NCBI GenBank assembly: GCA_001797315.1
Contig: MGPC01000022.1
Location: forward strand, 1 to 59,295
Direction of reading: 5' to 3'
DNA: 59,295 nt
Origin: Curvibacter sp. GWA2_64_110
Lineage (GTDB): Bacteria > Pseudomonadota > Gammaproteobacteria > Burkholderiales > Burkholderiaceae_C
Below the pieces are notes generated by a model, which saw nothing but the letters and a program-made list of their open reading frames with translations, was not told the DNA's origin and ran no database searches. Positions 2,191 to 59,295 of this stretch are shown one piece after another. Numbering within the stretch: the stretch's first letter is position 1; each line of letters begins with the position of its first letter. The translations under genes and the position numbers were made by a program.

Positions 2191-3651
2191 TTGAACCATC
2201 CCGACAGCACAGACAAAAAAATCATTCCCATCGTTTCGCAGGAGGTGACGTCATCCGATGCGGACGATGCGGAAATGGTTTCTTTGTACCAAGCGCACAA
2301 GAAAGTCTATCCCCGCAGCGTTTCCGGCCTGTTCGCACGCTGGCGCTGGGGGATGGTGTTCCTGACGCAGCTGGTGTTCTACGGTTTGCCATGGTTGGAG
2401 TGGGGGCAGCGCCAGGCGGTGCTGTTCGATCTCGAAGCGCGGCGGTTCTATATCTTTGGTCTGGTTCTGTACCCGCAGGACTTCATCTATTTGACAGGCC
2501 TGCTGGTCATCTCGGCGCTGTCGCTTTTTCTTTTTACGGCGGTGGCGGGGCGTCAATGGTGCGGCTACGCCTGCCCGCAGACGGTTTACACCGAGATCTT
2601 CCTCTGGATCGAGCGCAAGATCGAAGGTGACCGCAGCGCGCGGATGCGGCTCGACAGCGCGCCGATGTCCGTCAGGAAGTTTTCCATCAAGGGGGCCAAG
2701 CAAATCGCCTGGATTTCGGTGGCGCTATGGACCGGCTTCACTTTTGTCGGCTATTTCTCGCCCATCCACGAGCTGGGGCGCTCTTTCCTGCATGCCACTC
2801 TGGGGCCGTGGGAAATTTTCTGGGTCTTTTTCTATGGTTTTGCCACCTATGGTTTCGCCGGCTACATGCGCGAACAGGTGTGCAAGTACATGTGTCCCTA
2901 TGCGCGTTTTCAGAGCGCCATGTTCGACAAGGACACGCTGATCGTCTCCTACGACGAACGGCGCGGCGAGCCGCGGGGCGCCCGCTCGCGCAAGGCTGAC
3001 CCCCAGGCGCTGGGCTTGGGTTCCTGTATTGATTGCACCCTGTGCGTGCAGGTGTGCCCGACGGGGATCGACATCCGCAAAGGGCTCCAGTACGAGTGCA
3101 TCAGTTGCGCGGCTTGCATCGATGTCTGTGACGACGTCATGGACAAGATGAACTATCCGCGCGGCCTCATCAAGTACACAACACAGAACTCGGTTCAGCT
3201 GGGCTGGACGCGTTCGCAGACCTTGCGCCATGTGCTGCGGCCACGCGTGCTGATCTACACCAGCATTCTGCTGGCCGTCAGCCTGGCCATGTTGATCAGC
3301 TTGGCAACACGTACGCCGCTGAAGGTGGATGTGGTGCGTGATCGCGGGGTGATGGCGCGTATCGTCTCCGGCGGCATGATCGAAAACGTGTATCGCCTGC
3401 AGGTCATGAACGCGACCGAGACGGCGCAGCAATACAAGATCACGGTTTCGGGCTTGCCAGGTCTGCAATTGGCGGCGGACCAGGATCCTCTGGTGGCCGT
3501 CAACGCCACCGAGGCGCGCTGGGTCGTGGTCCGCGCCCAGTTGCCCTACGAGGCAGCAGCTCCGGGGTCGCACCCCATCCATTTCGAGATCGCAGCGCAG
3601 GATGCACCTGCGCACGTGAGTGAGAAATCCGTGTTTCTGGTGCCGCGTTAA
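2191..3651 (+). CDS. ccoG: CcoG/FixG, polyferredoxin-like cbb3 assembly protein
   Basis: A 486-residue membrane iron-sulfur protein that follows ccoNOQP in most proteobacteria. CcoG is implicated in copper handling for cbb3 assembly. Visible are CGYACPQ, then VCKYMCPYARFQ, and a pair of [4Fe-4S] ligand sets in CIDCTLCVQVCP and CISCAACIDVC. About five hydrophobic spans and a C-terminal immunoglobulin-like domain follow the FixG plan. The likely start is TTG, placed after CGGAG and 23 bases behind the ccoP stop. Confidence 0.93.
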   Translation: MNHPDSTDKKIIPIVSQEVTSSDADDAEMVSLYQAHKKVYPRSVSGLFARWRWGMVFLTQLVFYGLPWLEWGQRQAVLFDLEARRFYIFGLVLYPQDFIYLTGLLVISALSLFLFTAVAGRQWCGYACPQTVYTEIFLWIERKIEGDRSARMRLDSAPMSVRKFSIKGAKQIAWISVALWTGFTFVGYFSPIHELGRSFLHATLGPWEIFWVFFYGFATYGFAGYMREQVCKYMCPYARFQSAMFDKDTLIVSYDERRGEPRGARSRKADPQALGLGSCIDCTLCVQVCPTGIDIRKGLQYECISCAACIDVCDDVMDKMNYPRGLIKYTTQNSVQLGWTRSQTLRHVLRPRVLIYTSILLAVSLAMLISLATRTPLKVDVVRDRGVMARIVSGGMIENVYRLQVMNATETAQQYKITVSGLPGLQLAADQDPLVAVNATEARWVVVRAQLPYEAAAPGSHPIHFEIAAQDAPAHVSEKSVFLVPR

Positions 3652-47489: not shown

Positions 47490-47564
47490 GGGCGATTAGC
47501 TCAGCGGTAGAGCACTGCATTCACACTGCAGGGGTCACATGTTCGATCCATGTATCGCCCACCA
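47490..47564 (+). tRNA. tRNA-Val (CAC anticodon)
   Basis: A 75-base tRNA with acceptor arms GGGCGAT and ATCGCCC, anticodon stem CTGCA/TGCAG with loop TTCACAC (anticodon CAC, reading GUG), T-loop GTTCGATCC and encoded ACCA end. The integrase gene of the element begins immediately downstream, so this tRNA is the probable integration site and remains intact. Confidence 0.95.
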
Positions 47565-47617: not shown

Positions 47618-47657
47618 CGGTGTAATTCCGGGGCCGGTGTAATTCTCGGTGTAAATC
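47618..47657. repeat. Three direct repeats CGGTGTAAWTC at the element border
   Basis: CGGTGTAATTC at 47618 and 47635, and CGGTGTAAATC at 47647, lie between the terminator and the integrase stop. Short direct repeats at this place could be arm-type integrase or excisionase binding sites. This is inferred from position. Confidence 0.5.
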
Positions 47658-48696
47658 AAGCCCGCACTGCCTTTTTGGCGGTGCGGGCTTTTTGTTTTTT
47701 GGATGTGGTCTTTACCAACTGGCTGAGCTTGTCCAGGGCAGTGCGCTGCTGCTCGATCTGCAGGTGCGCATAACGTTGGGTAGTCTGGGTGTTGCTGTGG
47801 CCAAGGATCTTGCCAATGGTGTAGAGGTCGACGCCCAGGCTCAGCAAAATGCTGGCGCAACTGTGGCGCAGGTCGTGAAAGTTGACGTGCTCCATGCCGG
47901 CGTCCACACGGGCACGGCGCCAGGCGCTCTTGACACCGTCGACGGTGATGGTGAGAGGGAAATGCTTGAGCCACGGCCGCAGGGCCGGGATGATGGGCAC
48001 CACGCGCGGCCGCAGCGTCTTGGTGTGGCTGCTTGGGATGGTGATTTCATTGCGGCCAATGTGCTCCGCCCGGATCTGGAACAATTCGCCACGTCGGGCC
48101 CCTGTGAGCAGGGCGGCCCAGATGGCCGCCTGGGCTTGTTCGCTGCAGTGGCTGGCGATGGTGCGCACCTGGTCGACGGTGAGGAAGACCTCGCGCTTGT
48201 TGTTGACGGCGACAGTCTTGATGCGCAGGCCGTAGTTTTCCGGGGTGAGGTTCTGCTCCCAGGCCAGGGCCAGGCCTTTCTTGGCCGTGGCCAGGCTGCG
48301 GTTGATGGTGGCTGCAGCGTAGGCGGGGGCCTTCTTGCCGGTCTTCGGGTCTTCAACCAGGCGGCTCATGTCCTTGATGACGTGAGCTGCAAACTCGCGC
48401 GCCTGGCTGGCGGTGTATTTCACGGCCCAGGGACCGAGGCGCTGGGCGTGGTGCTTGGAGGTGTCGGCGCTGCGTAGGCGCGCAGCATGCTGCGTGTATA
48501 GGGCCAGGACGGCCGTCATGGGCGGGTCACCAGGCACTGAGACTTGTGCGCCCTTGGCCATGGCGCCACGCAGCTGAGCCTCGATCAGCTGGGCATCACG
48601 CGAAGATGTGTTTTCCGGCAGGATGCGGTGAATTCGTTGGCCGCGGACCATAAGGCCGACGTGCCGACGCCCTTGTTTGTCTTGCCAGATTGACAT
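47656..48696 (-). CDS. int: Tyrosine-type site-specific integrase
   Basis: A 346-residue phage/island integrase. Catalytic residues are the R in LLTGARRGELFQI, H-x-x-R in HDLRHSCAS, H in LGHSNTQTTQ and the tyrosine in QRYAHL. The N-terminal part is an arm-binding/SAM-like domain. It abuts tRNA-Val(CAC), the likely attachment site. The start at 48696 overlaps the upstream helix-turn-helix gene by about 110 bases, which suggests coupled control of integration and excision. Confidence 0.95.
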   Translation of the reverse strand: MSIWQDKQGRRHVGLMVRGQRIHRILPENTSSRDAQLIEAQLRGAMAKGAQVSVPGDPPMTAVLALYTQHAARLRSADTSKHHAQRLGPWAVKYTASQAREFAAHVIKDMSRLVEDPKTGKKAPAYAAATINRSLATAKKGLALAWEQNLTPENYGLRIKTVAVNNKREVFLTVDQVRTIASHCSEQAQAAIWAALLTGARRGELFQIRAEHIGRNEITIPSSHTKTLRPRVVPIIPALRPWLKHFPLTITVDGVKSAWRRARVDAGMEHVNFHDLRHSCASILLSLGVDLYTIGKILGHSNTQTTQRYAHLQIEQQRTALDKLSQLVKTTSKKQKARTAKKAVRA

Positions 48697-48860
48697 GGTT
48701 GGTGCACCTTGAGCCAGTTCTTTACTTCGTCCAGGTTGTAGCGTTTCGACCTGGCACCCACGGGCGTGAATGGTAGCCCATCATGCTCAAGCCGGCGAAT
48801 GGTGGACTCGCTCACGCCCAGGGCGGCGCAGAGCTGCTGGCGAGTTAGTTCGGTTGACAT
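48585..48860 (-). CDS. Excisionase-like helix-turn-helix protein
   Basis: A 91-residue DNA-binding protein. TRQQLCAALGVSESTIRRLEHDGLPFTPVGARSKRYNLDEVKNWL is the MerR/AlpA-like winged helix seen in excisionases. It overlaps the start of int in a different frame. ATG at 48860 is followed directly by this domain. It probably sets the direction of recombination, but a repressor role is possible. Confidence 0.75.
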   Translation of the reverse strand: MSTELTRQQLCAALGVSESTIRRLEHDGLPFTPVGARSKRYNLDEVKNWLKVHQPCQSGKTNKGVGTSALWSAANEFTASCRKTHLRVMPS

Positions 48861-48867
48861 GGTCACT

Positions 48868-49194
48868 TCAGGCGTCTCCAAACATATCCACAGTGTGCTC
48901 ACACCGCGGCGCTGATGTGGCTTGACCGGCCGGCACGTAGGCCGTGCACATGGGTTGGCCATCTTTGCCGTAGACCCACTCCTTGGCCTCGCCGGCGAAA
49001 CTGGCCGCGATGATGGTGCAGACCTCGTCGTCGTCGCACTCATCCAGCTCCACGCCGTCGCGCATGGCGCGATCTCTGGCGCACTGGCGGCACCACTCAG
49101 ACATGAATATCTCGCCCTCGGTGCCATTGCTCGGCTCGTAGCGTTGGCCGGCCTGCTCGACGTAGAGCTTGGCCAGATCTGCGGGGAATGTCAT
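48868..49194 (-). CDS. Small cysteine-containing element protein
   Basis: A 108-residue protein that I cannot name. It is acidic in the middle (ELDECDDDEVCTIIAA) and carries SEWCRQCARDRAMRDG, a pattern common in small phage proteins that may bind zinc. ATG at 49194 follows GGAGG by six bases, which fixes the start. It ends seven bases before the excisionase-like gene. Confidence 0.7.
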   Translation of the reverse strand: MTFPADLAKLYVEQAGQRYEPSNGTEGEIFMSEWCRQCARDRAMRDGVELDECDDDEVCTIIAASFAGEAKEWVYGKDGQPMCTAYVPAGQATSAPRCEHTVDMFGDA

Positions 49195-49275
49195 GGCTTG
49201 CCTCCGCCGGAAATCCAGCAAGATGACGCCGAAAATTCAACGCGAGATATTCGGGCATCACTTTGGAGGTGCCGA

Positions 49276-49380
49276 ATGCCAAAAATCATGCCTACTGAAT
49301 GGCTCCGCTTGGCTGGGCTGCTGTCCCGCCTTGTGGTCAATGTTCTGATCATGCTGCAGCACCTTCCTGATTGGATGTAG
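49276..49380 (+). CDS. Possible 34-residue hydrophobic small protein
   Basis: A short plus-strand frame, MPKIMPTEWLRLAGLLSRLV and so on to LQHLPDWM, with GGAGG six bases before the ATG. It is mostly a hydrophobic helix (LAGLLSRLVVNVLIML). It is one of the few plus-strand frames in the element and overlaps the end of the minus-strand gene at 49349. It could be a small membrane peptide, including a toxin-like one, or chance. Confidence 0.35.
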   Translation: MPKIMPTEWLRLAGLLSRLVVNVLIMLQHLPDWM

Positions 49381-49645
49381 TCGGTCTCATGACTGGCCGG
49401 TGTTCACTGCGGCTCTTGTTCCTTGGCCGCTCACAGTGCGGTGGCGGCACCACCACGCGCCACACAGCGCGATCGCCAAAGCCGTTGCTTTCCCAGTGGT
49501 GGATATAGGCATCGGGCATCTTGTGCAGCATGACCAGGGTGGTGGCTCTTTGAGCGCCGATCTGCCGCGCGATCGCAGGTGTGCTGAGTCCATCCGGGTA
49601 GGCGCGCAGCAGTTCACGGGTTTTTGTCATAGCTCGGCCGCTCAT
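49349..49645 (-). CDS. Helix-turn-helix-like protein coupled to the DGR reverse transcriptase
   Basis: A 98-residue protein. TRELLRAYPDGLSTPAIARQIGAQRATTLVMLHKM looks like a winged helix-turn-helix, and HHWESNGFGDRAVWRVVV resembles its beta wing. The ATG at 49645 overlaps the RT stop (ATGA) and is preceded by AGGAAAC. It is therefore translated with the RT and may be an accessory or regulator of the DGR. The C-terminal third is basic and unstructured in appearance. Confidence 0.65.
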   Translation of the reverse strand: MSGRAMTKTRELLRAYPDGLSTPAIARQIGAQRATTLVMLHKMPDAYIHHWESNGFGDRAVWRVVVPPPHCERPRNKSRSEHRPVMRPTTSNQEGAAA

Positions 49646-51024
49646 GGTTGTTTCCTGTAAATCTTCGAAAGGTCCCCAGCCACCGCGTGCCCACGCCGGC
49701 GCAGCAGCCGGGCCACTTGCGCCTGGTCGGCGTGGCTGTGGGTGGCCTGGCGCAGCAGGCCCAGGTAGCTGTTGCCGGCGGTGTGCAGGTCTTCGGCCGG
49801 CATGCGCTCCAGGCGGCGCAGGGCCGTGGCCAGGGTGCGCGGCCGTGTGGTGCGCCGCCATGGCTTGATGACGTGGCCAACGAAGTCGATACCGCGGGCA
49901 ATGGGCTGCAGGATGGTCTTGCTGGGGTTGGCGCGGGCGCCCAGGTACTGGGGCAGCCAGGCCTCGATATCTGCGCGCGCCTGGTTGAGCCACTGGGGTG
50001 ACTCGTGCAGCAGGATGAAGTCGTCCACGTAGCGCACGTAGTGCCGGGCGCGCAGCTGGTGCTTGACGTGCTGGTCCAGCGCGTCAAGGTGGACGTTGGC
50101 GAAGAACTGGCTGCTCAGGTTGCCGATCGGCAAGCCCGTGTCCGCCGGCGCGTTGAACAGGCTCTTGTGGGGCGGCACCAGGGCCAGCTTGGCCGGGCTT
50201 CCGCGCAGCTCGACGTCGGTGCGCGGATCATGAAAGAGGATGGTGCGTGCCAGAGCCAGCCACCAGGGTTCGTGCACACGTTTGGCCAGCTGGGCCAGCA
50301 GGACGGGCTTGCTGATGGCCACGAAGAAGTTGGCCAGGTCCATCTTCAGGTAGTGCGCCGGGCGGCTCCAGTTTTGGGTGATGGAGCGCACGCTGTGCTC
50401 CAGCTGCAGGGCGGCGTACAGGGTGCCACGGCCTGGGATGCAGGCGCAGCTGGTGGCCACGAAGCCGGCATGGAAGCGCGGGGCAATGTGGTTGTACAGC
50501 AGGTGGTGCACGATGCGGTCGGCGAACTGGGCGGCCCACACCTCGCGCGGCCTGGGGCGGGTAACCACAAAGCAGATGCTGCGGCCAGGCTGGTAGGTGC
50601 CGTCGATCAGGCGCTGATACAGCGCCCAGAGGTTGGCCTCCAGCGCCTGCTCGAATTGCAGGGCGCTGGCGGTGTTGCGCTTGTTGGCGCGGCAATCGAG
50701 GTAGGCCTGCACCAGGGCCTCGAACGAACACGGTGCGGTTGAATCTGCGGACGAAACGAGCGGCACCGCCAGACCAGGACTTGTCGTTGTTGTTGGTGTT
50801 GCCGTTGTTGAAGTTCTGGTTCCAGGCGTTGTTGCGCGAGTACTGCGTCGGTGTTTGCTATCCACGTCGCCCTGCCGAAGGCGGGTGCCGATCGGCGGGG
50901 AAACTGCGCCGGACCAGGCCTGCCCTGGGGCAGCGGTATCCGTGGTGCGCATGTCCGTGGCCTTGTGGGCCAGGGGCAAGACCAGATTCAATTGACGTTC
51001 GGGCATGAGAACCTTGGATTTCAT
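49642..51024 (-). CDS. Diversity-generating retroelement reverse transcriptase
   Basis: A reverse transcriptase that copies the TR RNA into cDNA with errors at adenines. The RT domain starts with FEALVQAYLDCRANKRN and ends near residue 400. The catalytic YVDD is at residues 332-335 in HYVRYVDDFILL; LPIGNLSSQFFANVHLDALD near residue 298 is the DGR-RT version of motif 4; KMDLANFF is motif 3. The longest coupled frame (460 residues) starts at ATG 51024, overlapping the avd stop by ATGA. It reads through the TR (residues 59-95). A GTG at 50766 would give a more usual 374-residue RT but has no ribosome site. Confidence 0.93.
   Translation of the reverse strand: MKSKVLMPERQLNLVLPLAHKATDMRTTDTAAPGQAWSGAVSPPIGTRLRQGDVDSKHRRSTRATTPGTRTSTTATPTTTTSPGLAVPLVSSADSTAPCSFEALVQAYLDCRANKRNTASALQFEQALEANLWALYQRLIDGTYQPGRSICFVVTRPRPREVWAAQFADRIVHHLLYNHIAPRFHAGFVATSCACIPGRGTLYAALQLEHSVRSITQNWSRPAHYLKMDLANFFVAISKPVLLAQLAKRVHEPWWLALARTILFHDPRTDVELRGSPAKLALVPPHKSLFNAPADTGLPIGNLSSQFFANVHLDALDQHVKHQLRARHYVRYVDDFILLHESPQWLNQARADIEAWLPQYLGARANPSKTILQPIARGIDFVGHVIKPWRRTTRPRTLATALRRLERMPAEDLHTAGNSYLGLLRQATHSHADQAQVARLLRRRGHAVAGDLSKIYRKQP
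50741..50848 (-). repeat. DGR template repeat (TR)
   Basis: A 108-bp template read on the minus strand. In the VR frame it has 36 codons with 30 adenines, including ten AAC codons (SRNNAWNQNFNNGNTNNNDK), the codon that gives the widest diversity when its adenines are mutated without making stop codons. It ends in a 41-bp block identical to both VRs. It lies between avd and the RT core, as in phage BPP-1. Confidence 0.96.
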
Positions 51025-51383
51025 GCTGCTGACGTTTTTTCGGTGAGCTTGATCCACCCGCCGCCTTGCGCACCCACGGCCTCCATCAGCTTGATGGCCT
51101 GTGCCCACTGCCCGGTGCTGACCAGGCGCTCGTCATTGCAGAAGCGCAGCAGCAGCTTGAGCCGGTCCAGGTGCTTGTGCATCAGCCGGATGGCTGTCAC
51201 ACGCGCCTGGCCCGTGGCTTCGTTGGCCTCGGCAATCTGCAGCACCACCTCCACGCCCAGGGCGTGCACGTCGCTGCCCGTGGTGTGCTTGAAGTCCTTG
51301 CGCATGTTTTTCTTGCATTGCGCCATCAGGCGCAGCAGGTCATACGCCGGCTTGTAGATGTTGAGCGTGGAGTAGTGGGCCAT
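51021..51383 (-). CDS. avd: Avd-type DGR accessory protein
   Basis: A 120-residue helical protein of the four-helix-bundle Avd/bAvd family (YKPAYDLLRLMAQCKKNMRKDFKHTTGSDVHALGVEVVLQIAEAN). Avd binds the RT and the TR RNA and is needed for mutagenic cDNA synthesis in known DGRs. Basic helices fit nucleic-acid binding. Its stop overlaps the RT frame by ATGA. It is preceded by the hairpin that lies behind the nearer target gene. Confidence 0.9.
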   Translation of the reverse strand: MAHYSTLNIYKPAYDLLRLMAQCKKNMRKDFKHTTGSDVHALGVEVVLQIAEANEATGQARVTAIRLMHKHLDRLKLLLRFCNDERLVSTGQWAQAIKLMEAVGAQGGGWIKLTEKTSAA

Positions 51384-51404
51384 GTGGGTGTAAAAGTGCG
51401 GCGG

Positions 51405-51423
51405 CCCGGCGCTGCGCGCCGGG
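51405..51423 (-). other. DGR hairpin behind VR1
   Basis: Arms CCCGGCGC and GCGCCGGG around three bases form a perfect eight-base stem, 35 bp beyond the VR1 end in the reading direction. An equivalent structure lies behind VR2. In BPP-1-type DGRs, a hairpin after the VR is needed for target recognition. Confidence 0.85.
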
Positions 51424-51432
51424 TTAAAGGGT

Positions 51433-51978
51433 TCAAGGGATCAAGAGTTCAAGGGCAGATCTGCGGACGAAACGAGCGGCACCGCCAGACCAGGACTTGC
51501 CGTTGGAGTCGGTGAGGCCGTCGTAGAAGTACTGGCCCCAGGCGCTGCCGCGCGAGTACTGCGTGCTGGTCCAGTACCAGAGATCCGGGTCGAAGGCGTC
51601 GCAGCCGTTGGCCGCCAGGTTATGCATCTCGCGCAGCGATGGGATGTACAGGTCGGTCAGGCCGCCAATGCCTTGGACCAGTGGGGCCACCACGGGGTGC
51701 TCGTCGGCGTTGGCCAGCAGCGCCTGGGTGTTGGCCAGGCCGTCCCACTGGCAGGCCGCGCCGGGCTCTTCTTTGCCTGCGCCGCCCCAGGCGACCTTGC
51801 GCAGCTCGAACTCGGGGCCGTGCGGCACGATGATGGCGTAGTCCGCCTGGCCAGAGCCGGGCTTGGCGCGCTGCAGCGCCCAGAAGGCGCCGCCGAGGTG
51901 AGGCAGCATGGTGCCGAGCGGCGGCAGCTTGATGCCGCTGTGCTGGCCGGTGGGGATCTCGATGGTTTCAGTGCTCAT
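51433..51978 (-). CDS. DGR target protein 1 (DUF1566/C-type lectin-like)
   Basis: A 181-residue target with the variable region at its C-terminus. The core has GLANTQALL, LTDLYIPSLREMHNL and FDPDLWYWTSTQYSRG, a pattern of the DUF1566 family whose fold resembles the C-type lectins used by DGRs for binding variation. The last residues are WSGGAARFVRRSALELLIP. No signal peptide or membrane span is seen. RBS is AGGAGCAACC. The binding partner is unknown. Confidence 0.9.
   Translation of the reverse strand: MSTETIEIPTGQHSGIKLPPLGTMLPHLGGAFWALQRAKPGSGQADYAIIVPHGPEFELRKVAWGGAGKEEPGAACQWDGLANTQALLANADEHPVVAPLVQGIGGLTDLYIPSLREMHNLAANGCDAFDPDLWYWTSTQYSRGSAWGQYFYDGLTDSNGKSWSGGAARFVRRSALELLIP
51459..51564 (-). 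repeat. DGR variable repeat 1 (VR1)
   Basis: About 106 bp matching the TR, at the 3' end of target gene 1. It differs from the TR at 14 positions, every one an adenine in the TR. Nine of ten AAC codons are changed (to Gly, Ser, Gly, Tyr, Tyr, Asp, Leu, Asp, Ser), plus one GAC to GGC. The 41-bp 3' block is unchanged. Confidence 0.96.
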
Positions 51979-52003
51979 GGTTGCTCCTGTGGAAAAAATT
52001 GGA

Positions 52004-52020
52004 CCGGCGCTGCGCGCCGG
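52004..52020 (-). other. DGR hairpin behind VR2
   Basis: Arms CCGGCGC and GCGCCGG around three bases, a perfect seven-base stem 33 bp beyond the VR2 end. It has the same loop and nearly the same distance as the hairpin behind VR1, and both gaps contain repeated CCTTGA-like sequence and a T-rich tract. Confidence 0.85.
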
Positions 52021-52038
52021 AAAAAAGGATTCAAGGGC

Positions 52039-52551
52039 TCAAGGAATCAAGGGGAATCTGCGGACGAAACGAGCGGCACCGCCAGACCAGGACTTGTCGC
52101 TGTAGCCGGTGTTGCCGTAGAGGAAGTACTGGCTCCAGGCGTAGTCGCGCGAGCACTGCGTGCTGGTCCAGTACCAGTAGTCGGTGTCGAATGCCTCGGC
52201 CGCATCGAGCAGGGGCTTGAGGTTGCCGTGCTGCAGCAGCGCACCCACGCGGGCGGGGACGTACCAGTCATCAAAGCCGCCGCTGCGGCAGGCCAGGGCG
52301 GCTTGCCCCAGGGGGCTGCCGGCTTCAGCCATGGCGCGGGTATTGGCCAGGCCATCGGATGCGCTGGTGGCGCCAGGAACATCCTTGTAGTCCGGCAGCC
52401 AGACGAGATCCTTGACAAAGCAATCGGCCGCAGGGCCGGTGACTTCGCCATACAGCTTGCCGTCGACCAGCAAGACGCCGTGGAAGAAGCCGCCTTCGAC
52501 CAGGTGGCCGAGGGCGGGGATGGAGAGTTTCAGGGTTTCGGGTGCGTTCAT
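52039..52551 (-). CDS. DGR target protein 2 (DUF1566/C-type lectin-like)
   Basis: A 170-residue target. Its N-terminal half (MNAPETLKLSIPALGHLVEGGFFHGVLLVDGK...) differs from target 1, but the second half has the same plan: GLANTRAMAEA, FDDWYVPARVGALL, FDTDYWYWTSTQCSRD and GGAARFVRRFPLIP. It is the first of the two target genes in the reading direction, with RBS GGAGCACACC. It has no signal peptide. One variable tyrosine has become cysteine. Confidence 0.9.
   Translation of the reverse strand: MNAPETLKLSIPALGHLVEGGFFHGVLLVDGKLYGEVTGPAADCFVKDLVWLPDYKDVPGATSASDGLANTRAMAEAGSPLGQAALACRSGGFDDWYVPARVGALLQHGNLKPLLDAAEAFDTDYWYWTSTQCSRDYAWSQYFLYGNTGYSDKSWSGGAARFVRRFPLIP
52054..52161 (-). repeat. DGR variable repeat 2 (VR2)
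   Basis: A 108-bp match to the TR at the 3' end of target gene 2. There are 12 differences, all at TR adenines. Nine of ten AAC codons are changed (Asp, Tyr, Ser, Tyr, Leu, Tyr, Gly, Tyr, Ser) and one TAC has become TGC. The 3' block is unchanged. Confidence 0.96.
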
Positions 52552-52578
52552 GGTGTGCTCCGGTTGGTGGGGAAAGGG

Positions 52579-53085
52579 TTAAGCGGCTTGCAGGGCATGG
52601 AAGTCGCGCATGAGGGTGACCTTGTCGCCGTTGGCCTTGATGTGGGCTTGGGCGGCATCAACGGCGGCCAGGAACTCGGCGCGGCCGAGCTGGTTGACCT
52701 GGAAGGTGTGCAGATCCACAAAGGTCTGCACCGCGTCCAGCTCGTAGTAGTGCAGGGCGGTTGGCTTCCACTGCCCGCTGGCCATGGCGCGGTCGTAGAC
52801 GGCCTGCAGGGCCTGCGTGGCAGTGTTCAGGTGCTCGGACAGGCCGCGCACGATGCCCTGGTGCTCGATGGCCTTGGCCACGTCCACGGCGCCGGCGATG
52901 ATGGACCACTGCAGCTCAGTGGCCACGCCTTCACGCAGGGCCTGGGCAGCCTGGCGCAGCATGTTGAGCACTTCCTCGTGGTCTGCTGCAGCTGGCTTGG
53001 CGGCACGGTGCAAGGCGATCTCCAGCGTGTTGACGGCGATCAGCCGCGGGCGGTAGGCCTTACGGGGTTTGTGGCTGCGGCTCAT
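52579..53085 (-). CDS. Helical element protein upstream of the DGR targets
   Basis: A 168-residue, mostly helical protein (MSRSHKPRKAYRPRLIAVNTLEIAL...) with a basic N-terminus. I do not recognise a named family, though similar proteins occur in phages of this group as far as I recall. ATG at 53085 overlaps the previous stop by ATGA and follows GAGGT. It ends 27 bases before the first target gene, so it is probably in the same transcript. Confidence 0.7.
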   Translation of the reverse strand: MSRSHKPRKAYRPRLIAVNTLEIALHRAAKPAAADHEEVLNMLRQAAQALREGVATELQWSIIAGAVDVAKAIEHQGIVRGLSEHLNTATQALQAVYDRAMASGQWKPTALHYYELDAVQTFVDLHTFQVNQLGRAEFLAAVDAAQAHIKANGDKVTLMRDFHALQAA

Positions 53086-54245
53086 GCTGCACCTCGCGTC
53101 GTGGCCTCGTTGATGCAGTTTTCGCACTCGTGCTGGTCGTCATCGTCCAGCGGCATGGGCAGGGTGCCGGCACCCAACAGGCCGAAGACAGCGCCCAGGG
53201 CACGCGTGTGTTGCATGCAGGCGTAGGTTGGGCCGTTGACGGTATTGACCAGGAACGCGGCGGGGTACTGTGGGCCGGCAAGTTCCGGCGCATCGACGGT
53301 GCGAACGTGCTCGATGGCCTGGTCTACCGGCATGGTGTGCCAGTCAGGCCACTGGCGGCCTTCGTTCTTGGTTTGCTTGGCCACCAGGGCGGTGATGATC
53401 TGTTCGGGTGTGGCACCGGTGCGCCAGGCGCCATCGAGCGCGAGGATGGCAACGTCGATCCACTCGCTCAGATCCTCCGGCTTGGCCAGTACCTCGATCA
53501 GTTCCTTGCGAATGTGGTCCACCACGCCCTGGGTGCGCATGCCGGGGCCGAAGGTGCGGGCGCTGAAAGCCTGCTGGCGTGTGAGGTGGGCGACCAGGTC
53601 GAAGGTGATGGGGCGGCCCTTGTCTGCCAGTTCGTCATCAACCTCGGTGTCGCCCAGGTACTGCCCACCCTCTCCGGGGTAGTCGGTACACCAGGCGAGG
53701 AGGCCTTTTTCGTGCCGGGCGATCGATACCTCGGTGTCGTGGCCACCGAAGAACGCGACCAGCTTCTCGGCCTGGCGCAGGGTGATGATCAGATCGGCGG
53801 CGATCGCGGGCTGGGGCTTTTCAAGGGGCTTGGGATCAACGCCAGCAGGAAGGTGGAGCATCCCTTCGTCTTTCGCGGCGTGCTGCCAGCAGTACAAGCC
53901 AGCGGGTGCGGGTGCGCCGTCCGTATCCTTTCCGAGGAGTTTCCACTGGAAACTCAGCCGCGCCTTGTTGTCGCCACCGCCCATGCCATCAATGGCATAG
54001 CGAAGCTGGCCGACGCTCATGGTGACGGGAGGGAGCAGGTGCACGACGCCATGTGGCATGACGTTCTGACCAGCATCAACGGCTTCGATTGGCGCATGAG
54101 CGGCCAATTTCTTTGCAGCCATTTCGACGAGACAGTCCTCCACCGTGTCACCTTCGATGGCTCCGACCGTGGTGGGGTTGCCCAGCGCTTTGCTGAGAGC
54201 AAGGATGTGCATGCGCTTGATGGGGGTGGTGTCGCTCGGTTTCAT
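53082..54245 (-). CDS. Multidomain protein with dATP/dGTP pyrophosphohydrolase domain
   Basis: A 387-residue protein. About residues 225-320 (FSARTFGPGMRTQGVVDHIRKELIEV, EWIDVAILALDGAWR, KNEGRQWPDW) match the phage dATP/dGTP pyrophosphohydrolase family, with its acidic metal-binding helix motifs. The first 220 residues include an unknown part with GLYCWQHAAKDEGMLHLP and ADLIITLRQAEKLVAFFGG. The end has CENC. Nucleotide-pool control is typical of phage early genes. It is coupled by ATGA to the ParB-like gene before it. Confidence 0.75.
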   Translation of the reverse strand: MKPSDTTPIKRMHILALSKALGNPTTVGAIEGDTVEDCLVEMAAKKLAAHAPIEAVDAGQNVMPHGVVHLLPPVTMSVGQLRYAIDGMGGGDNKARLSFQWKLLGKDTDGAPAPAGLYCWQHAAKDEGMLHLPAGVDPKPLEKPQPAIAADLIITLRQAEKLVAFFGGHDTEVSIARHEKGLLAWCTDYPGEGGQYLGDTEVDDELADKGRPITFDLVAHLTRQQAFSARTFGPGMRTQGVVDHIRKELIEVLAKPEDLSEWIDVAILALDGAWRTGATPEQIITALVAKQTKNEGRQWPDWHTMPVDQAIEHVRTVDAPELAGPQYPAAFLVNTVNGPTYACMQHTRALGAVFGLLGAGTLPMPLDDDDQHECENCINEATTRGAA

Positions 54246-56371
54246 GCCACCACCTCCAGTTGACCGGCGTCAAAGGGCATGGCACCGCCACGCTTGAGCT
54301 TGACGGAGTAGACGCCGTCGCCCATGTCTTTGCCGATGGTGCCGTCTCGCCCGGCCCATTTGGCGGCGATGGGGCCGAGCTGGGCTTTGTCGGTGATGAC
54401 GCGCACTGCCTGGCCAACGCTTAACGTGGCGGCCTTTGTGGGCGCTTTCTGGACCTTGTGGGATGTCAGCGCCTCGCTCGCCTTTTCGTCGGCGGTCTTG
54501 GGGAAGGGCCACGCTGCCATGGGGTTCATGCCGCCTGGCTTAGCGGGCGGCGCCACTGCGCCCTTGGGCGCAGAAGCTGACCCCTCGATGCCCTGCAGCG
54601 CGTCAGCGATGCCTTGCTTTGCTTCCTCGGCCGAGATCTTCGCCGCGCGAGCGGGAGCGGTCGACGGCTTGCCCTTCGTTCCGCTCTTTCCCCCCGCACC
54701 CGCCTTAGCTTGCGCAGCAGGGGCGTTCGCGGTGGGCGCTTTTTTCTCCGGCTTGGGGTAGACGCGGTCTTTCACCTCGGCCTCGATGCGTTTGGTGACT
54801 TCCTTGAGCCTGTTGCCGTGCACGGCCTTGGTGACCAGATCGAAGCCTTCGCCGCTGCGGTTGTGCATGAGGAAGAGCAGGTGCAGCAGGTCGGGCAGCG
54901 AGTCCTTCTTCACCATCTCGGCCAGGCCGTGAGATGCCCCTACGCTGCCGACGTCCAGGATTTTGCTGACGGCTGCTGCAGCGTCTGAGTCCAGGCTGTG
55001 GGCGGCCTGCCTGGCCAGCATGCGATGCACTTCGATGTTGAAGTGGCCCAAGCCAACGCGAGCGCCGTCGTCCATGCCTTCATTGGCCTGGATCAGTGCC
55101 CACGTTTCGGCGATGATCTGCGCCCGCACCTCGCGGTGGAACTTGGCATCCAGGCGGGCCTTCTCCTGGCTGGCCTTCTCGTCCAGCAGATCCTGCACGC
55201 CGGCGGGAGCGGCCTTCTTGTCGGCCTTGGCCTGCGCCTGGATCTCCTTCAGCAGGGTGTTGGCCACGTCATTGGGCAGGCAGGCCTCCAGCAGCCCCTT
55301 CTTGCTCGGGTGCTCCAGCATGGTGGGCTTGATGCCCTTTTCGTCCATGAGCTTGCCGATGAGTTTGCGCAGGGGTTCGCCGGTGGGGCTGTCTTCCTTG
55401 TTGTCCAGGCGTTTGTAGCCCTTGTAGCCGCCTTTGTAGTTGTTCACCTGCAGCTCGCGGGCCTCGCTGCCGGCAATGACGGTCTGGCCTTTGGCCTCGG
55501 CCTCTTTCACGAGCAGCTTGGCGGCGGCTTCTTCCTTCTTGTGGAAGCAGGGCGGGTCTGTGCACACGTCGGCACTCTTGACGTCGTGGAAGATGTCGGG
55601 GTTGGCGCCGGTGCGCTTGCTGCATTCTTTGCAGCTGCCGACGCCGGGCACCAGATCCACCACGGTGATCTTGAACCGGGCGTCTGACAGCTTGAGCATG
55701 TAGCTGTCTTGCGCGAGCTGCTGGGCGCGGCGGAAGCTCATGGGTTCGCGGTCGTAGCCTTGGCCGCGCAGAACTTCCTGCAGGAACTTGGCCTGTTGCT
55801 TGCCGTCTGGAATGCGGGCCGCCAGCATGGCCACGCTGGCTTCGATCTTGCCCTCGCGCAGGGCGGCGCGGCCTTCGGTGCCCAGGTCGAGCAGCTTGAG
55901 GCGGTTGTAGACGTAGGTGCGGCTCTTGCCGATTTTCTCGGCCACGTCTTCGGGCTTGAGTTCCTTGTTGTGATCCATCAGGCACTGGTAGCCTTCGGCT
56001 TCCTCCAGCTCGGACAGGTCGCGGCGCTGGAGGTTCTCGATGATCTGGATCTCCAGCACCTGGTCGTCGGTGAGGTCCTTGATCATCACGGGGTATTCGT
56101 CCACGCCGCCAATCTCGCAGGCGCGGTCGCGGCATTCGCCACAGACAATCTCGTGGGTGACGTTGCGGGGGGTATCAGGCACGCGCCAGGCGGGCAGGGG
56201 GCGCAGCAGCAAAGGCTGGTGCACGCCGCTGGCCTTGACGCTGACGGCCAGCTCCTGCAGGTAATCTGCGGGGAAGGTCTTGCGTGGGTTGGTGGTGCTG
56301 CGGACGGCGTTTGCCCGCTTGAACATTGCGAACTGGGTGCCAGCGGCCTGGGTGGGCGGGTTCTTGGTCAT
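54242..56371 (-). CDS. ParB-like protein with cysteine cluster
   Basis: A 709-residue ParB/RepB/Spo0J-type protein. The ParB nuclease-like domain (NPRKTFPADYLQELAVSVKASGVHQPLLLRP ... EIQIIENLQRRDLSELEEAEGY) is interrupted by CGECRDRAC; a helix-turn-helix follows (KPEDVAEKIGKSRTYVYNRLKLL). A second set of cysteines (CKECSKRTGANPD...CTDPPCFHKK) may bind zinc. A long Ala/Lys/Pro linker leads to a small beta domain (VRVITDKAQLGPIAAKWAGRDG). It could act in partition or as a phage regulator. ATG at 56371 follows AGGAG. Confidence 0.82.
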   Translation of the reverse strand: MTKNPPTQAAGTQFAMFKRANAVRSTTNPRKTFPADYLQELAVSVKASGVHQPLLLRPLPAWRVPDTPRNVTHEIVCGECRDRACEIGGVDEYPVMIKDLTDDQVLEIQIIENLQRRDLSELEEAEGYQCLMDHNKELKPEDVAEKIGKSRTYVYNRLKLLDLGTEGRAALREGKIEASVAMLAARIPDGKQQAKFLQEVLRGQGYDREPMSFRRAQQLAQDSYMLKLSDARFKITVVDLVPGVGSCKECSKRTGANPDIFHDVKSADVCTDPPCFHKKEEAAAKLLVKEAEAKGQTVIAGSEARELQVNNYKGGYKGYKRLDNKEDSPTGEPLRKLIGKLMDEKGIKPTMLEHPSKKGLLEACLPNDVANTLLKEIQAQAKADKKAAPAGVQDLLDEKASQEKARLDAKFHREVRAQIIAETWALIQANEGMDDGARVGLGHFNIEVHRMLARQAAHSLDSDAAAAVSKILDVGSVGASHGLAEMVKKDSLPDLLHLLFLMHNRSGEGFDLVTKAVHGNRLKEVTKRIEAEVKDRVYPKPEKKAPTANAPAAQAKAGAGGKSGTKGKPSTAPARAAKISAEEAKQGIADALQGIEGSASAPKGAVAPPAKPGGMNPMAAWPFPKTADEKASEALTSHKVQKAPTKAATLSVGQAVRVITDKAQLGPIAAKWAGRDGTIGKDMGDGVYSVKLKRGGAMPFDAGQLEVVA

Positions 56372-56955
56372 TGAGGCTGCTCCTGTGTGGTGGGGTTGTC
56401 CAGGCCAAGGTAGGTGCGCCATGGCACCTTCTTGTCTTTGACCAGGAAGCCCCATGTGCCGCGCTTACGGCCGGTGATGAAAAGCGTCCAGACGCCGCCG
56501 GGGCTCACCTCGCTGATGCGGTGGTATTGGCCGAAGAGCAGGCGGCCGGTGTAGCCGGCGTTGCGCTTGTAGATCTCGCGCAGGCGACGGTCCACAAGTC
56601 GGGTGGTCTCGGACGGCGGTGCATATTCGTCGAAGGGGCGCTCTTCGCGGTACCAGCCGCTCAGCACGATGGTGCGGGCGTTCCACGGGTGGTCGTGCAG
56701 GTCACGGTCCTGGTCGGCGCGGCAGATATGGTGGATACGCGCGCTAGGCAGCCACGGGATGCGGGCCGGCGTCTGTTCGTCATTGGCGTCGCGGCCGTAG
56801 GGGTTGAACAGCCACCAGCGGCCCATGTAAACGCTGCTGCCGTCTGCGCTGGTGATGTGGGTGTACGGGGTGCGCTGGGCACGGCGAATGATCCAGTCCA
56901 CCAGGCGGGGGTGGCTGGCCAGGGTGCGGGCGATGATTTGCCAGAGGGTGCTCAT
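56368..56955 (-). CDS. Cupin-like element protein
   Basis: A 195-residue protein with RADQDRDLHDHPWNARTIVLSGWYREE, where HDHPW and a later histidine in FGQYHRISEV fit a metal-binding cupin barrel. Similar proteins occur in phages, but the reaction is not known. ATG at 56955 follows AGGAGC. Its stop overlaps the ParB-like start by ATGA. Confidence 0.65.
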   Translation of the reverse strand: MSTLWQIIARTLASHPRLVDWIIRRAQRTPYTHITSADGSSVYMGRWWLFNPYGRDANDEQTPARIPWLPSARIHHICRADQDRDLHDHPWNARTIVLSGWYREERPFDEYAPPSETTRLVDRRLREIYKRNAGYTGRLLFGQYHRISEVSPGGVWTLFITGRKRGTWGFLVKDKKVPWRTYLGLDNPTTQEQPQ

Positions 56956-56957
56956 GT

Positions 56958-57206
56958 TCAGGCGCTCCTCTGGCTGGGTGCAACGCTGCCGGGCACAACG
57001 CGATCGCGCGTGCGGTGCACGGCGTCTATATCCACCTCGGCCAGCAGGGGCGTGGTGCCGGACCACTGGCGCTTGGTGGTGGTGATGATGTCCAGCGCGG
57101 CGGACTGGGCGGCGCTGCAGGGGGCACCGATGGCGGGTTTGAAGTCAGTGTGGATGGCCACGCCGCCGGCGGGTGTGTCTGTGAGGGTGATGGTTACGGT
57201 TGGCAT
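56958..57206 (-). CDS. Small element protein (82 residues)
   Basis: A protein beginning MPTVTITLTDTPAGGVAIHTDFKPAIGAPCSAAQSAALDII. It is mostly beta-strand-like at the start, with no family I can name. ATG at 57206 follows AGAGGAAG. It overlaps the upstream gene by 13 bases and ends two bases before the cupin-like gene start. Confidence 0.65.
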   Translation of the reverse strand: MPTVTITLTDTPAGGVAIHTDFKPAIGAPCSAAQSAALDIITTTKRQWSGTTPLLAEVDIDAVHRTRDRVVPGSVAPSQRSA

Positions 57207-57538
57207 GGGGCTTCCTCTTGTGCTTCGGGGATGACGTGGATGTGGCTGGCGGTGGCGCCGAGGCGCACGCTCACCAGTGGGGCCTGCACGGTGACGCGCA
57301 TGCCACGCTTGAGGCGGTGGGCTGCAGCGCGGGCCTGTTCGTGCGATGCGGCTGGGAATGGCTGCTCGACATGCATGGGGGTGTGCAGGGCGTTGTCGAG
57401 CTCGATGTCCATGCAGAGCACGGGCACGGTGTGGCCCTGGCCGTCCAGCACCTTGGTGCGGGCTTCGGCCTGGTGGAGCAGGGTGCCGGTGTATTCCATG
57501 ACCGGCGTGCCCTGTGCAGACGTGTGCACGGCGCTCAT
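57194..57538 (-). CDS. Small beta-rich element protein
   Basis: A 114-residue protein (MSAVHTSAQGTPVMEYTGTLLHQAEARTKVLDGQGHTVPVLCMDIELDN...) with ELDNALHTPMHVEQPFPA and RMRVTVQAPL-like strands ending in ATASHIHVI. The pattern could be an OB-fold, as in single-strand DNA-binding proteins, but I cannot show this. ATG at 57538 overlaps the previous stop by ATGA. Confidence 0.65.
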   Translation of the reverse strand: MSAVHTSAQGTPVMEYTGTLLHQAEARTKVLDGQGHTVPVLCMDIELDNALHTPMHVEQPFPAASHEQARAAAHRLKRGMRVTVQAPLVSVRLGATASHIHVIPEAQEEAPCQP

Positions 57539-57843
57539 GGCAGTGCAGCCAGCAAGGTGGCGCCCCATTCGCGCACGGCATCTGCCGCCTGGTGCGGGTT
57601 GCCCATGAGCCAGAGGCCGAAGCCCATGCCGAAGGCGATGCACACCACCAGCAGCATCCAGCAGGCGCAGAGCGCAAGGGCACCTTCGGCGCGGAAGAAC
57701 TCGTCGCCCAGGTCGACGATGGGCATGTCGCTATGGGGGCGGGTGGTGTCCACCTGTGCGCCGCCATTGCGGGTGTGCAGGTGGGCTCGTACAGGGCAAT
57801 CTGCGCCCCGGGTGCATTGGCCGAAGTCGTTGCAGCAGTTCAT
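57535..57843 (-). CDS. Cysteine-rich single-span membrane protein
   Basis: A 102-residue protein. The N-terminus has MNCCNDFGQCTRGADCPVRAH, and a hydrophobic span (LCACWMLLVVCIAFGMGFGLWLM) lies at about residues 58-80. I cannot assign a family. ATG at 57843 overlaps the previous stop by ATGA and so belongs to the same coupled gene run. Confidence 0.65.
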   Translation of the reverse strand: MNCCNDFGQCTRGADCPVRAHLHTRNGGAQVDTTRPHSDMPIVDLGDEFFRAEGALALCACWMLLVVCIAFGMGFGLWLMGNPHQAADAVREWGATLLAALP

Positions 57844-58406
57844 GGCTGTGCTCCTGCCAGTCGCACGGCGTAGGGTTTGAGACCGTGGCGGGGGTTGCAC
57901 TGGATGGCGCCGCTGCCGAGCTCTTCCCACTCGGCATTGCCACAGATGGCGCGGGCCATGACGTTCAGGCGCTGGCGTTGCTGCTCACCGCGCTGGGCGT
58001 CTTCAAGATCCTGGGCGACGGCCACCTCGGTGCTGTGGTCGCTGATGGTGAAGGTGTCCAGGTGAAACGAACTGGCCAGGAGGAGGCCCAGCAGCACCGC
58101 GGCGAAGATGCTAAGTAGCAGGCTCAGCAGCGGGGTGTAGATGTTGCCGGCCTGGGCACGCTGGGGGCGGTGCATGTCGCGGGCACAGGGCCAGCCACGG
58201 CGGTGGATGTCTTCGGGCGCAATGCCAAAGTCCTCCAGGTCCCCGGGGTGCATGCTGGTAAGGTGCAGCGCGCCGGGGCAGGTGCCCAGGCTGGGGTGCC
58301 AGTCGTCAATGACGTGGCGGCACTTGAACTCGACCTGCAGGGCGGCTTTTTGCCGGGTCTTGCCCCAGCCCTGGGGGGCGCTGAGGATGATGGTGGGGGC
58401 GCTCAT
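57840..58406 (-). CDS. P-loop-like membrane protein
   Basis: A 188-residue protein. The N-terminus TIILSAPQGWGKT looks like a Walker A loop; residues up to about 85 may be a small nucleotide-binding or DNA-associated part; a span follows (LLSLLLSIFAAVLLGLLLASSF). The lack of a visible Walker B makes ATPase activity doubtful. It is coupled to both neighbours through ATGA overlaps. Confidence 0.6.
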   Translation of the reverse strand: MSAPTIILSAPQGWGKTRQKAALQVEFKCRHVIDDWHPSLGTCPGALHLTSMHPGDLEDFGIAPEDIHRRGWPCARDMHRPQRAQAGNIYTPLLSLLLSIFAAVLLGLLLASSFHLDTFTISDHSTEVAVAQDLEDAQRGEQQRQRLNVMARAICGNAEWEELGSGAIQCNPRHGLKPYAVRLAGAQP

Positions 58407-58999
58407 GCCGGCACCTCTGTGCGCAACATCAGGTCGGCGCTGCTCAGGCGGAGATTGCTGGGCTGTGTTTCATGCTCCACCAGGTAAACATCGAAGTGCG
58501 TGGTTTCCCGTGTGTAAGGAAGCCGCACACCGTGATGGCGGATGGCTTCCAGCTGCCCCGGGTCCACGCTGCGCGGCTCAAGTCGCTCGCTGAGGTTGAT
58601 GGCCTTCACGCCATCTCCGGCAAGGCCTAAGATCAAGCGGCGCGCCAGCAGGCGCCTGCCGCTGCCCTGTGGCCCTACAACATGAATGAACGAGGAAGCC
58701 GATGACAAACGACGAGATGGAGACCCGCATCCTGCGCCTTGAGACGCGCCTTGCAGCGACTCAGGTGCTATTGCATACCTTTTTGCCAGCCACAGTCCCA
58801 GACCGACGTCATCAGATCCTGCGGCAGTTCGGGCAGTACTGCGCTGCCACGGAAGCTGATCTGAAGACGCAAGGCGTTCCTGAGGCTGACCGGCGGTGGC
58901 AGCTTGCAGAACTGGCGCAGATGTATTCGGCCTTGGACGGCGCGCTGAATTTGCTCCAGGAATGGGAAGCCAAGAAAAAAAGCGGCTGAGGTGCTTCAT
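58403..58999 (-). CDS. P-loop-like element protein, N-terminus uncertain
   Basis: A 198-codon frame from ATG 58999 (MKHLSRFFSWLPIPG...), with GAGGT seven bases before and ATGA overlaps at both ends. The C-terminal half has HVVGPQGSGRRLLARRLI, a Walker A-like loop, and LPYTRETTHFDVYLVEHE. The middle part overlaps a protein-like plus-strand frame (58702-58989), and its own composition there is poor. The gene may therefore start later, or the plus-strand frame may have invaded it. Confidence 0.5.
   Translation of the reverse strand: MKHLSRFFSWLPIPGANSARRPRPNTSAPVLQAATAGQPQERLASSDQLPWQRSTARTAAGSDDVGLGLWLAKRYAIAPESLQGASQGAGCGSPSRRLSSASSFIHVVGPQGSGRRLLARRLILGLAGDGVKAINLSERLEPRSVDPGQLEAIRHHGVRLPYTRETTHFDVYLVEHETQPSNLRLSSADLMLRTEVPA
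58702..58989 (+). CDS. Plus-strand helical protein antisense to the previous gene
   Basis: A 95-residue frame with convincing protein composition (MTNDEMETRILRLETRLAATQVLL ... LAELAQMYSALDGALNLLQEW), mostly amphipathic helix, and GAGGA six bases before ATG. It is the only long plus-strand frame in this part of the element. It lies antisense to the N-terminal half of the minus-strand frame. Both cannot be equally constrained. I favour this one for composition and the other for its couplings. Confidence 0.5.
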   Translation: MTNDEMETRILRLETRLAATQVLLHTFLPATVPDRRHQILRQFGQYCAATEADLKTQGVPEADRRWQLAELAQMYSALDGALNLLQEWEAKKKSG

Positions 59000-59295
59000 G
59001 CCGACACCTCGACCAGGTTGCCGAAGTCGTCGCAGACCATGTCGCCCAGGTTGCGTTCCCACTTGATGCCTGCGGCGTCGACCAGCTCCATGTAGCCAGC
59101 CCAGTGTGCGGGGGACCACCAGCCGGCCATGACGCGGCTGTTACGCCAACTCTCGGGTTCTTCGCGGCGGCGGTACAGGCGCACGTTGCCGCCCCGGCCG
59201 TCACGGATGTGGATGTCGTCACCCTCGATGTGGATACGCTTGGTGTCGGCATCCAGTGGGTGCAGGACGGTGATGCCGTCCTTGGCGCTTAAGTC
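58996..59295 (-). CDS. Element protein, start beyond the window
   Basis: An open frame of at least 99 residues that runs past the window end (visible part DLSAKDGITVLHPLDADTKR ... MVCDDFGNLVEVSA). It contains many Trp residues (WWSPAHWAGYMELVDAAGIKWE) and a beta-like start. I do not recognise it. Its stop overlaps the next start by ATGA, so it belongs to the same coupled run. Confidence 0.6.
   Translation of the reverse strand, partial: DLSAKDGITVLHPLDADTKRIHIEGDDIHIRDGRGGNVRLYRRREEPESWRNSRVMAGWWSPAHWAGYMELVDAAGIKWERNLGDMVCDDFGNLVEVSA

Follow-up and report, generated by a model that had tools for sequence, protein, structure and literature searches.

Diversity-generating retroelements (DGRs), DGRs with two targets and the overlap of the template repeat (TR) with the annotated open reading frame (ORF) of the reverse transcriptase (RT) are already known. 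The order of the DGR components was held to be irrelevant in DiGReF (PMC3521204). How the complementary DNA (cDNA) is primed and bounded is apparently known from a single phage, BPP-1, in which an adenine in the spacer primes the cDNA (PMC12875486). In the Burkholderia phage Magia, two short lectin-fold candidate targets were noted by its authors (PMC7883833). We have now analysed a stretch of 59,295 nt from Curvibacter sp. GWA2_64_110 (contig MGPC01000022.1 of the assembly GCA_001797315.1; hereafter the window), which carries a complete DGR on the minus strand at 49642-52551. Target 2, target 1, avd, TR and RT follow one another in this order, and all these parts are present and open (Table 1). 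The original prediction mentioned neither the position of the TR within the RT frame nor the structured RNA that separates avd from the TR. We consider it likely that this is a phage-borne DGR that has been active, in which a structured RNA, RT-15, acts as a hub that tethers the TR as a loop and bounds the cDNA, and in which the TR lies within the RT message.

Template and variable repeats

The original prediction of a DGR with one TR for two targets, located in a mobile element beside a tRNA-Val gene, is supported by our data. The TR and the variable repeats (VRs) of the window were also aligned plainly, with no penalty on non-adenine mismatches. In the ungapped alignments, 14 mismatches in 106 columns (VR1) and 14 in 111 columns (VR2) all fell among the 30 and 32 TR adenines, respectively; the chance of adenine-only mismatch by position alone is 1.4e-9 for VR1 and 2.2e-9 for VR2. 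The TR has three matches in the genome of the window, all of them being the TR and the two VRs of the DGR itself. The family was assembled from further loci, including 80 of 163 viral relatives. Since the VR search in the family penalised non-adenine mismatches, its totals (2322 at adenines, 37 at other bases) are biased towards adenines.

The closest relative is locus L119 (the place of G025) in Curvibacter sp. PD_MW3, a member of the same genus. The two TRs are identical (0/106 positions differ), while 12 of the 30 adenine sites and none of the 76 others differ in VR1 (Fisher 4e-8), and 16 of 30 and again none of 76 in VR2 (Fisher 4e-11). Because the TR is the same and the VRs differ at adenine sites only, the comparison indicates that the DGR has been active. 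Compared with locus L012, there is one difference in the TR, whereas VR1 differs at 17/30 adenine sites and 2/76 others and VR2 at 16/30 and 1/76. Where the TR of L012 or L011 carries non-adenine changes of its own, these recur in the two VRs of that element, which is expected from repeated copying from the TR. Adenine-specific copying into the VRs is thus apparent from the comparison of these relatives. Locus L010 shows zero variation relative to the window, and both probably come from one sample. A decayed or silent DGR is very improbable: all ORFs are open, and the VRs are far from invariant, as they diverge between relatives almost only at adenines, with an identical TR in the closest one.

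The VRs also bear on the nature of the RT. Families of retron, group II intron and defence RTs are listed in NCBIfam and PADLOC, and an RT of such a kind beside unrelated repeats might be considered; all NCBIfam matches were, however, far below the cut-off. The RT contains both the YVDD and the LPIGNLSSQ motifs named in the original prediction and gave its profile match to the PHROG family "Reverse transcriptase". Its nearest solved structure is 8ub7 (1.7e-38), which we take to be the BPP-1 RT (it is labelled "Reverse transcriptase" in the structure table); a group II intron RT (1.5e-10) and other structures rank behind it. This explanation, at odds with Avd as well, deserves practically no weight and is already refuted by the TR/VR repeats with their adenine-only mismatches.

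Two VRs were found in 66, three in 14 and one in 8 of the 88 unique loci (from 98 loci, near-identical ones removed), so that two targets are the norm in this DGR family. An extra VR lies about 3.8-5.6 kb upstream of the RT in L017, L029, L046, L057, L064, L085, L104, L105, L112 and L113, and one TR would accordingly serve distant targets as well. L048 and L098 (Polaromonas jejuensis) have an RT, no TR or VR detected in the VR search and a closed frame; they are possibly decayed DGRs. Hairpins follow both VRs of the window by 30-35 nt. A post-VR hairpin was rejected as a family feature, as stems of at least 7 bp occurred in only 26 of 194 VR windows, compared with 17 of 580 random and 8 of 106 TR windows.

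RT-15 and the helix at the TR 3' end

The RT-15 match in the window covers the 192 model positions in full length and ends where the TR begins. RT-15 was found in 14/14 family loci scanned with Rfam, the run taking in 11 of the 18 loci of the first selection. A consensus fold of 39 loci, out of 81 diverse ones, contains a long-range helix which joins the RT-15 segment S1 to S2 at the 3' end of the TR. Folding of the window's own sequence gives S1-S2 pair probabilities from 0.59 to 1.0, with at least 0.95 for 7 of the 9 pairs. Across the alignment 90.4% of the S1-S2 cells are paired, and this value falls to 19-46% when the partner is slid by 1-3 columns.

Pairing was counted in 101 unique loci (L010, L048, L098 and L102 were excluded beforehand; L025, L034 and L005 were not located). 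Helix position 6 is paired in 97% of them, with 54 UA, 29 GC and 10 CG pairs, versus 50% in shuffles, none of 1000 reaching the observed value. Position 7 is paired in 83% (shuffles 68%, 0/1000) and position 8 in 57% (shuffles 47%, 9/1000). Covariation was also followed on the RT tree (FastTree, midpoint root, Fitch), with p-values that treat all branches alike. At position 6, with 14 changes on either side, 10 fell on shared branches and 9 of these were paired afterwards (p = 4e-11). At position 7, with 13 and 24 changes, 8 were shared and 7 paired (p = 1e-5), and at position 8, with 26 and 32 changes, 12 were shared and 10 paired (p = 8e-5). The covariation in the aligned loci supports the S1-S2 helix.

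The boundaries of the repeats coincide with these structures. In 151 of 152 VRs, identity with the TR begins 4-10 nt past the GATAGC of RT-15. Of 182 ends of this identity, 161 fall 1-7 nt into S2 (mode 5). The outer positions 6-8 pair more in the TR (0.97, 0.82 and 0.58) than in the VR (0.75, 0.48 and 0.24). Bounded by the S1-S2 helix on one side and the RT-15 closing helix on the other, the TR is thus a loop between two helices of one RNA hub.

This layout has to be compared with that of an ordinary DGR of the BPP-1 type, where the priming RNA would lie 3' of the TR within the RT coding sequence and the overlap of TR and RT would be incidental. Synonymous conservation is slightly higher in the first 60 codons of the RT domain (0.51, 0.48 and 0.54 versus 0.36-0.43 in the last five blocks), although similar values (0.52 and 0.51) were found at RT residues 220-260, and the irrelevance of component order stated in DiGReF would also fit this explanation. 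The consensus fold, however, shows no conserved structure 3' of the TR, and the Phage_DGR covariance model, which matches BPP-1 itself, gave zero matches in the window up to E 1. Moreover, just 27-57 nt separate the TR end from the conserved AYxxCR of the RT, and the RT frame is conserved. We consider a BPP-1-type arrangement quite unlikely.

RT reading frame through the TR

The RT frame of the window continues without a stop across the TR and RT-15 as far as an ATG that shares bases with the avd stop (ATGA, 51024-51021). In the 260 nt preceding the RT domain, this frame is open in 86 of 102 unique loci (from 114; loci with at least 260 nt upstream), the two other sense frames in 6 and 0. Openness alone is no proof, because the conserved RNA letters hold stops in the other frames, which makes up part of the contrast. 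The start codons and the phase provide stronger evidence. Among the 95 loci tabulated (11 of 106, which had no TR/VR or end motif, were left out), 75 have no ATG, GTG or TTG between the TR end and the RT domain. Where no ATG follows the TR, the distance from the TR to the domain is divisible by three in 85 of 87 loci; where one does, this holds for only 1 of 8 (Fisher 2.6e-8, ignoring the relatedness of the loci). The phase is kept by six landmarks across 13 to 28 distinct spacings. The exact RT start varies, since ATGA at the avd stop is in the RT frame in only 39/99 loci.

There is consequently strong comparative evidence that translation of the RT begins within the TR or upstream of it in most relatives, the RNA thus being both message and template. 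Strong protein selection on the RT extension was considered as well and was rejected, as codon-position changes show none. The best reading is that translation runs through much or all of the TR, whereas the peptide itself hardly matters. L114, L115, L116 and L123, which have RT-15, the RT's own ATG just after the TR and a TR out of phase, are natural controls for this dual-coding reading. L117 has an RT frame that stays open across the TR in the reading frame of the VR, not in the usual one.

Alternatively, the S1-S2 helix and RT-15, which cover the likely RT start region, might regulate RT translation and have no role in priming. RT-15 does extend over the stop codon of avd and several possible start codons of the RT, and a conserved ATG lies inside it in 64 of 86 loci. 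However, RT-15 scores equally high where the RT starts after the TR (L114-L116 and L123), and the helix lies precisely across the boundary of TR/VR identity, which a translation switch does not need. Translational control as the sole function appears rather unlikely to us.

Proposed mechanism

We propose that a single transcript carries avd, RT-15, the TR and the RT gene. RT-15 folds just 5' of the TR, with its closing helix ending a few bases ahead of the TR start, and S1 pairs with the last TR bases (S2). As covariation and boundaries show, the TR is then a loop with a defined start and end, both tethered to one RNA hub to which the RT and Avd would bind. Synthesis of the cDNA would begin at the S1-S2 helix, with the GU junction that follows S1 as the probable priming site, and would stop at the RT-15 closing helix. 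The cDNA would receive random bases opposite template adenines and be copied into the C-terminal VRs of the two C-type-lectin-like proteins. We infer by analogy that S1 serves as the primer strand and the conserved GU as the priming site, the S1-S2 helix setting the start point of the cDNA.

Several observations weigh against the tethered-loop, dual-coding arrangement. Helix position 5 pairs in 57% of loci (shuffles 52%) with p = 0.31 for covariation on the tree, and positions from 9 onwards are no better than shuffles (p = 0.60 on the tree for position 9). The N-terminal extension of the RT is hardly constrained and predicted to be disordered (residues 1-95 in the window); changes at the three codon positions number 229/234/285 over RT-15 and 75/139/120 over the TR, versus 77/67/225 in the RT domain. 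The RT frame is closed in 16 of the 102 unique loci, with RT-15 equally present there, and RT-15 contains an in-frame stop in Magia and Cruim01, whose RT could start at a later ATG there. The post-VR hairpin conserved in BPP-1 is rare in the family (26/194 VR windows), and the synonymous conservation gives a weak and unclear hint of an RNA element 3' of the TR. Finally, the identity of the window with an IMG/VR contig over 11,640 nt carries no information on activity.

With these points considered, a phage DGR that has been active, with the TR tethered to RT-15 within the RT message, is still the reading that we favour as likely. The chances are about even that it represents a second DGR RNA architecture, in which a guide RNA 5' of the template turns it into a tethered loop through a covarying helix and the template also encodes the RT N-terminus. 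If this is true, one RNA is message and template at once, and the S1-S2 pairing predicts the cDNA start site to the base.

Proteins of the DGR and its host phage

Avd was assigned by its PHROG family "Avd protein of DGR" and by Pfam bAvd, above the cut-off; NCBIfam DivGenRetAVD matched with 2.9e-13, under its curated cut-off (50 vs 80 bits), and a sequence search of Avd against solved structures gave zero matches. According to its structure model (pLDDT 94.9), target 2 carries a C-type-lectin-like fold with the VR at the C-terminus. The top Foldseek match was the C-terminal domain of Legionella Lcl (8q4e; 3.2e-4, TM 0.52/0.65), followed by a fimbrial protein and then, weakly, C-type lectins. 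Target 1 is assigned to the same lectin fold by homology only.

Table 1 Positions of the DGR components and neighbouring features in the window
Feature	Position	Strand	Evidence
tRNA-Val (CAC), probable attachment site	47490..47564	+	ARAGORN; sister phage contig G061
Tyrosine integrase of the phage	47656..48696	-	Pfam Phage_integrase 4.5e-23; PHROG integrase 3.3e-43
DGR reverse transcriptase, 460 aa from the presumed ATG start	49642..51024	-	PHROG RT 1.7e-111; 8ub7 1.7e-38
RT long ORF	49642..51108	-	Likely start 51024
S2, CAGAUUCAA, at the TR 3' boundary, partner of S1	50739..50747	-	Alignment, covariation, fold
Template repeat (TR), within the RT reading frame	50743..50848	-	VR2 match extends to 50738
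Structured RNA, Rfam RT-15 (RF03018), between avd and TR	50846..51037	-	157.8 bits, gathering 82, E 5e-39
GU junction from S1 to the RT-15 closing helix; proposed priming site	50981..50982	-	Alignment: G invariant, T at least 90%
S1, RT-15 segment UUGAAUCUG, partner of the TR 3' end	50983..50991	-	Alignment, covariation, fold
avd, accessory variability determinant, 120 aa	51021..51383	-	PHROG Avd 2e-26; Pfam bAvd 4.4e-11
GC-rich inverted repeat, 8-bp stem, 3-nt loop, 35 nt past VR1	51405..51423	-	Sequence
Target 1, 181 aa, Lcl_C-like domain, VR1 C-terminal	51433..51978	-	Weak Pfam Lcl_C 1.1e-4, below cut-off
VR1	51459..51564	-	14 mismatches vs TR, all at adenines
GC-rich inverted repeat, 7-bp stem, 3-nt loop, 30 nt past VR2	52004..52020	-	Sequence
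Target 2, 170 aa, predicted C-type-lectin-like fold, VR2 C-terminal	52039..52551	-	Pfam Lcl_C 9.2e-7, below cut-off; model; Foldseek
VR2	52051..52161	-	14 mismatches vs TR, all at adenines

The mobile element at tRNA-Val was confirmed by the tRNA and the integrase, which are separated by 91 bases, but has to be corrected to a whole contractile-tailed temperate phage. The IMG/VR contig G060 (38,549 nt) is identical to the window at 47656-59295 and continues 26.9 kb beyond it with genes for terminase, portal, protease, capsid, tail sheath, tape measure, baseplate and tail fibre. From this gene set we conclude that the DGR belongs to such a phage. The targets sit in the integrase-side gene block, distant from the tail fibre gene. 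The tRNA-Val is the probable attachment site: beside the integrase of the sister contig G061 lies the 3' half of this tRNA-Val, and the contig has no intact tRNA, as expected of such a site. A host-side right attachment site was searched for and not found, the contig of the window ending inside the phage.

The same phage type with the DGR is present in L119, with a tRNA-Pro at 9258-9334. No close relative of the window's integrase was found in the PD_MW3 genome (best match 1.8e-6), and the integrase module may have been exchanged. Two genes upstream of the targets, at 53082-54245 on the minus strand, lies a gene for a dATP/dGTP pyrophosphohydrolase domain protein (PF04447, 6.2e-24), which might alter dNTP pools during adenine mutagenesis. 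A large ParB-like protein of 737 aa is encoded at 54242-56455 (minus strand) in the phage early block.

Comparison with known DGRs

The original prediction placed the components in the same order as in BPP-1 (Bordetella phage, NC_005357), which holds for the genes and fails for the RNA layout. Both DGRs have target, avd, TR and RT on one strand, adenine mutagenesis and a VR at the C-terminus of the target, BPP-1 having one target and the window DGR two. In BPP-1, the structured RNA (Rfam Phage_DGR, 2750-2882) lies 3' of the TR (2887-3020, brt from 2742), whereas in the window RT-15, which had no match in BPP-1, lies 5' of a TR that overlaps the RT frame. A stem of a flanking RNA with the TR 3' end is nevertheless common to both; the best one in BPP-1, of 7 bp, joins spacer 48-54 to TR 123-129. 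The BPP-1 priming adenine, which we take to be A56, is two bases past this stem.

Magia (MT701587) resembles the window in its RT (57.6% identical), RT-15, Avd and its nature as a temperate phage with a tail sheath. It differs by a stop in RT-15 within the RT frame, the RT being annotated from a later ATG, and its targets do not both adjoin avd. The RT-15 family, of which Weinberg 2017 is reportedly the source, has an Rfam model (RF03018) that ends about at the TR start and leaves S1 unpaired, thus including neither the TR nor the S1-S2 helix. Structural group 3 of DiGReF comprises annotated overlaps that were considered to have no bearing on the mechanism, whereas the frame conservation found here suggests translation through the TR.

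No description of RT-15/TR pairing or of a TR-closing helix with a 5' RNA was found in the literature searched, which did not include the main BPP-1 RNA papers, so the RNA layout is apparently, and provisionally, new. A widespread family with its helper RNA on the opposite side of the template from that in BPP-1 would be a natural test of which features are essential, and the feature to which it points is the helix holding the 3' end of the template.

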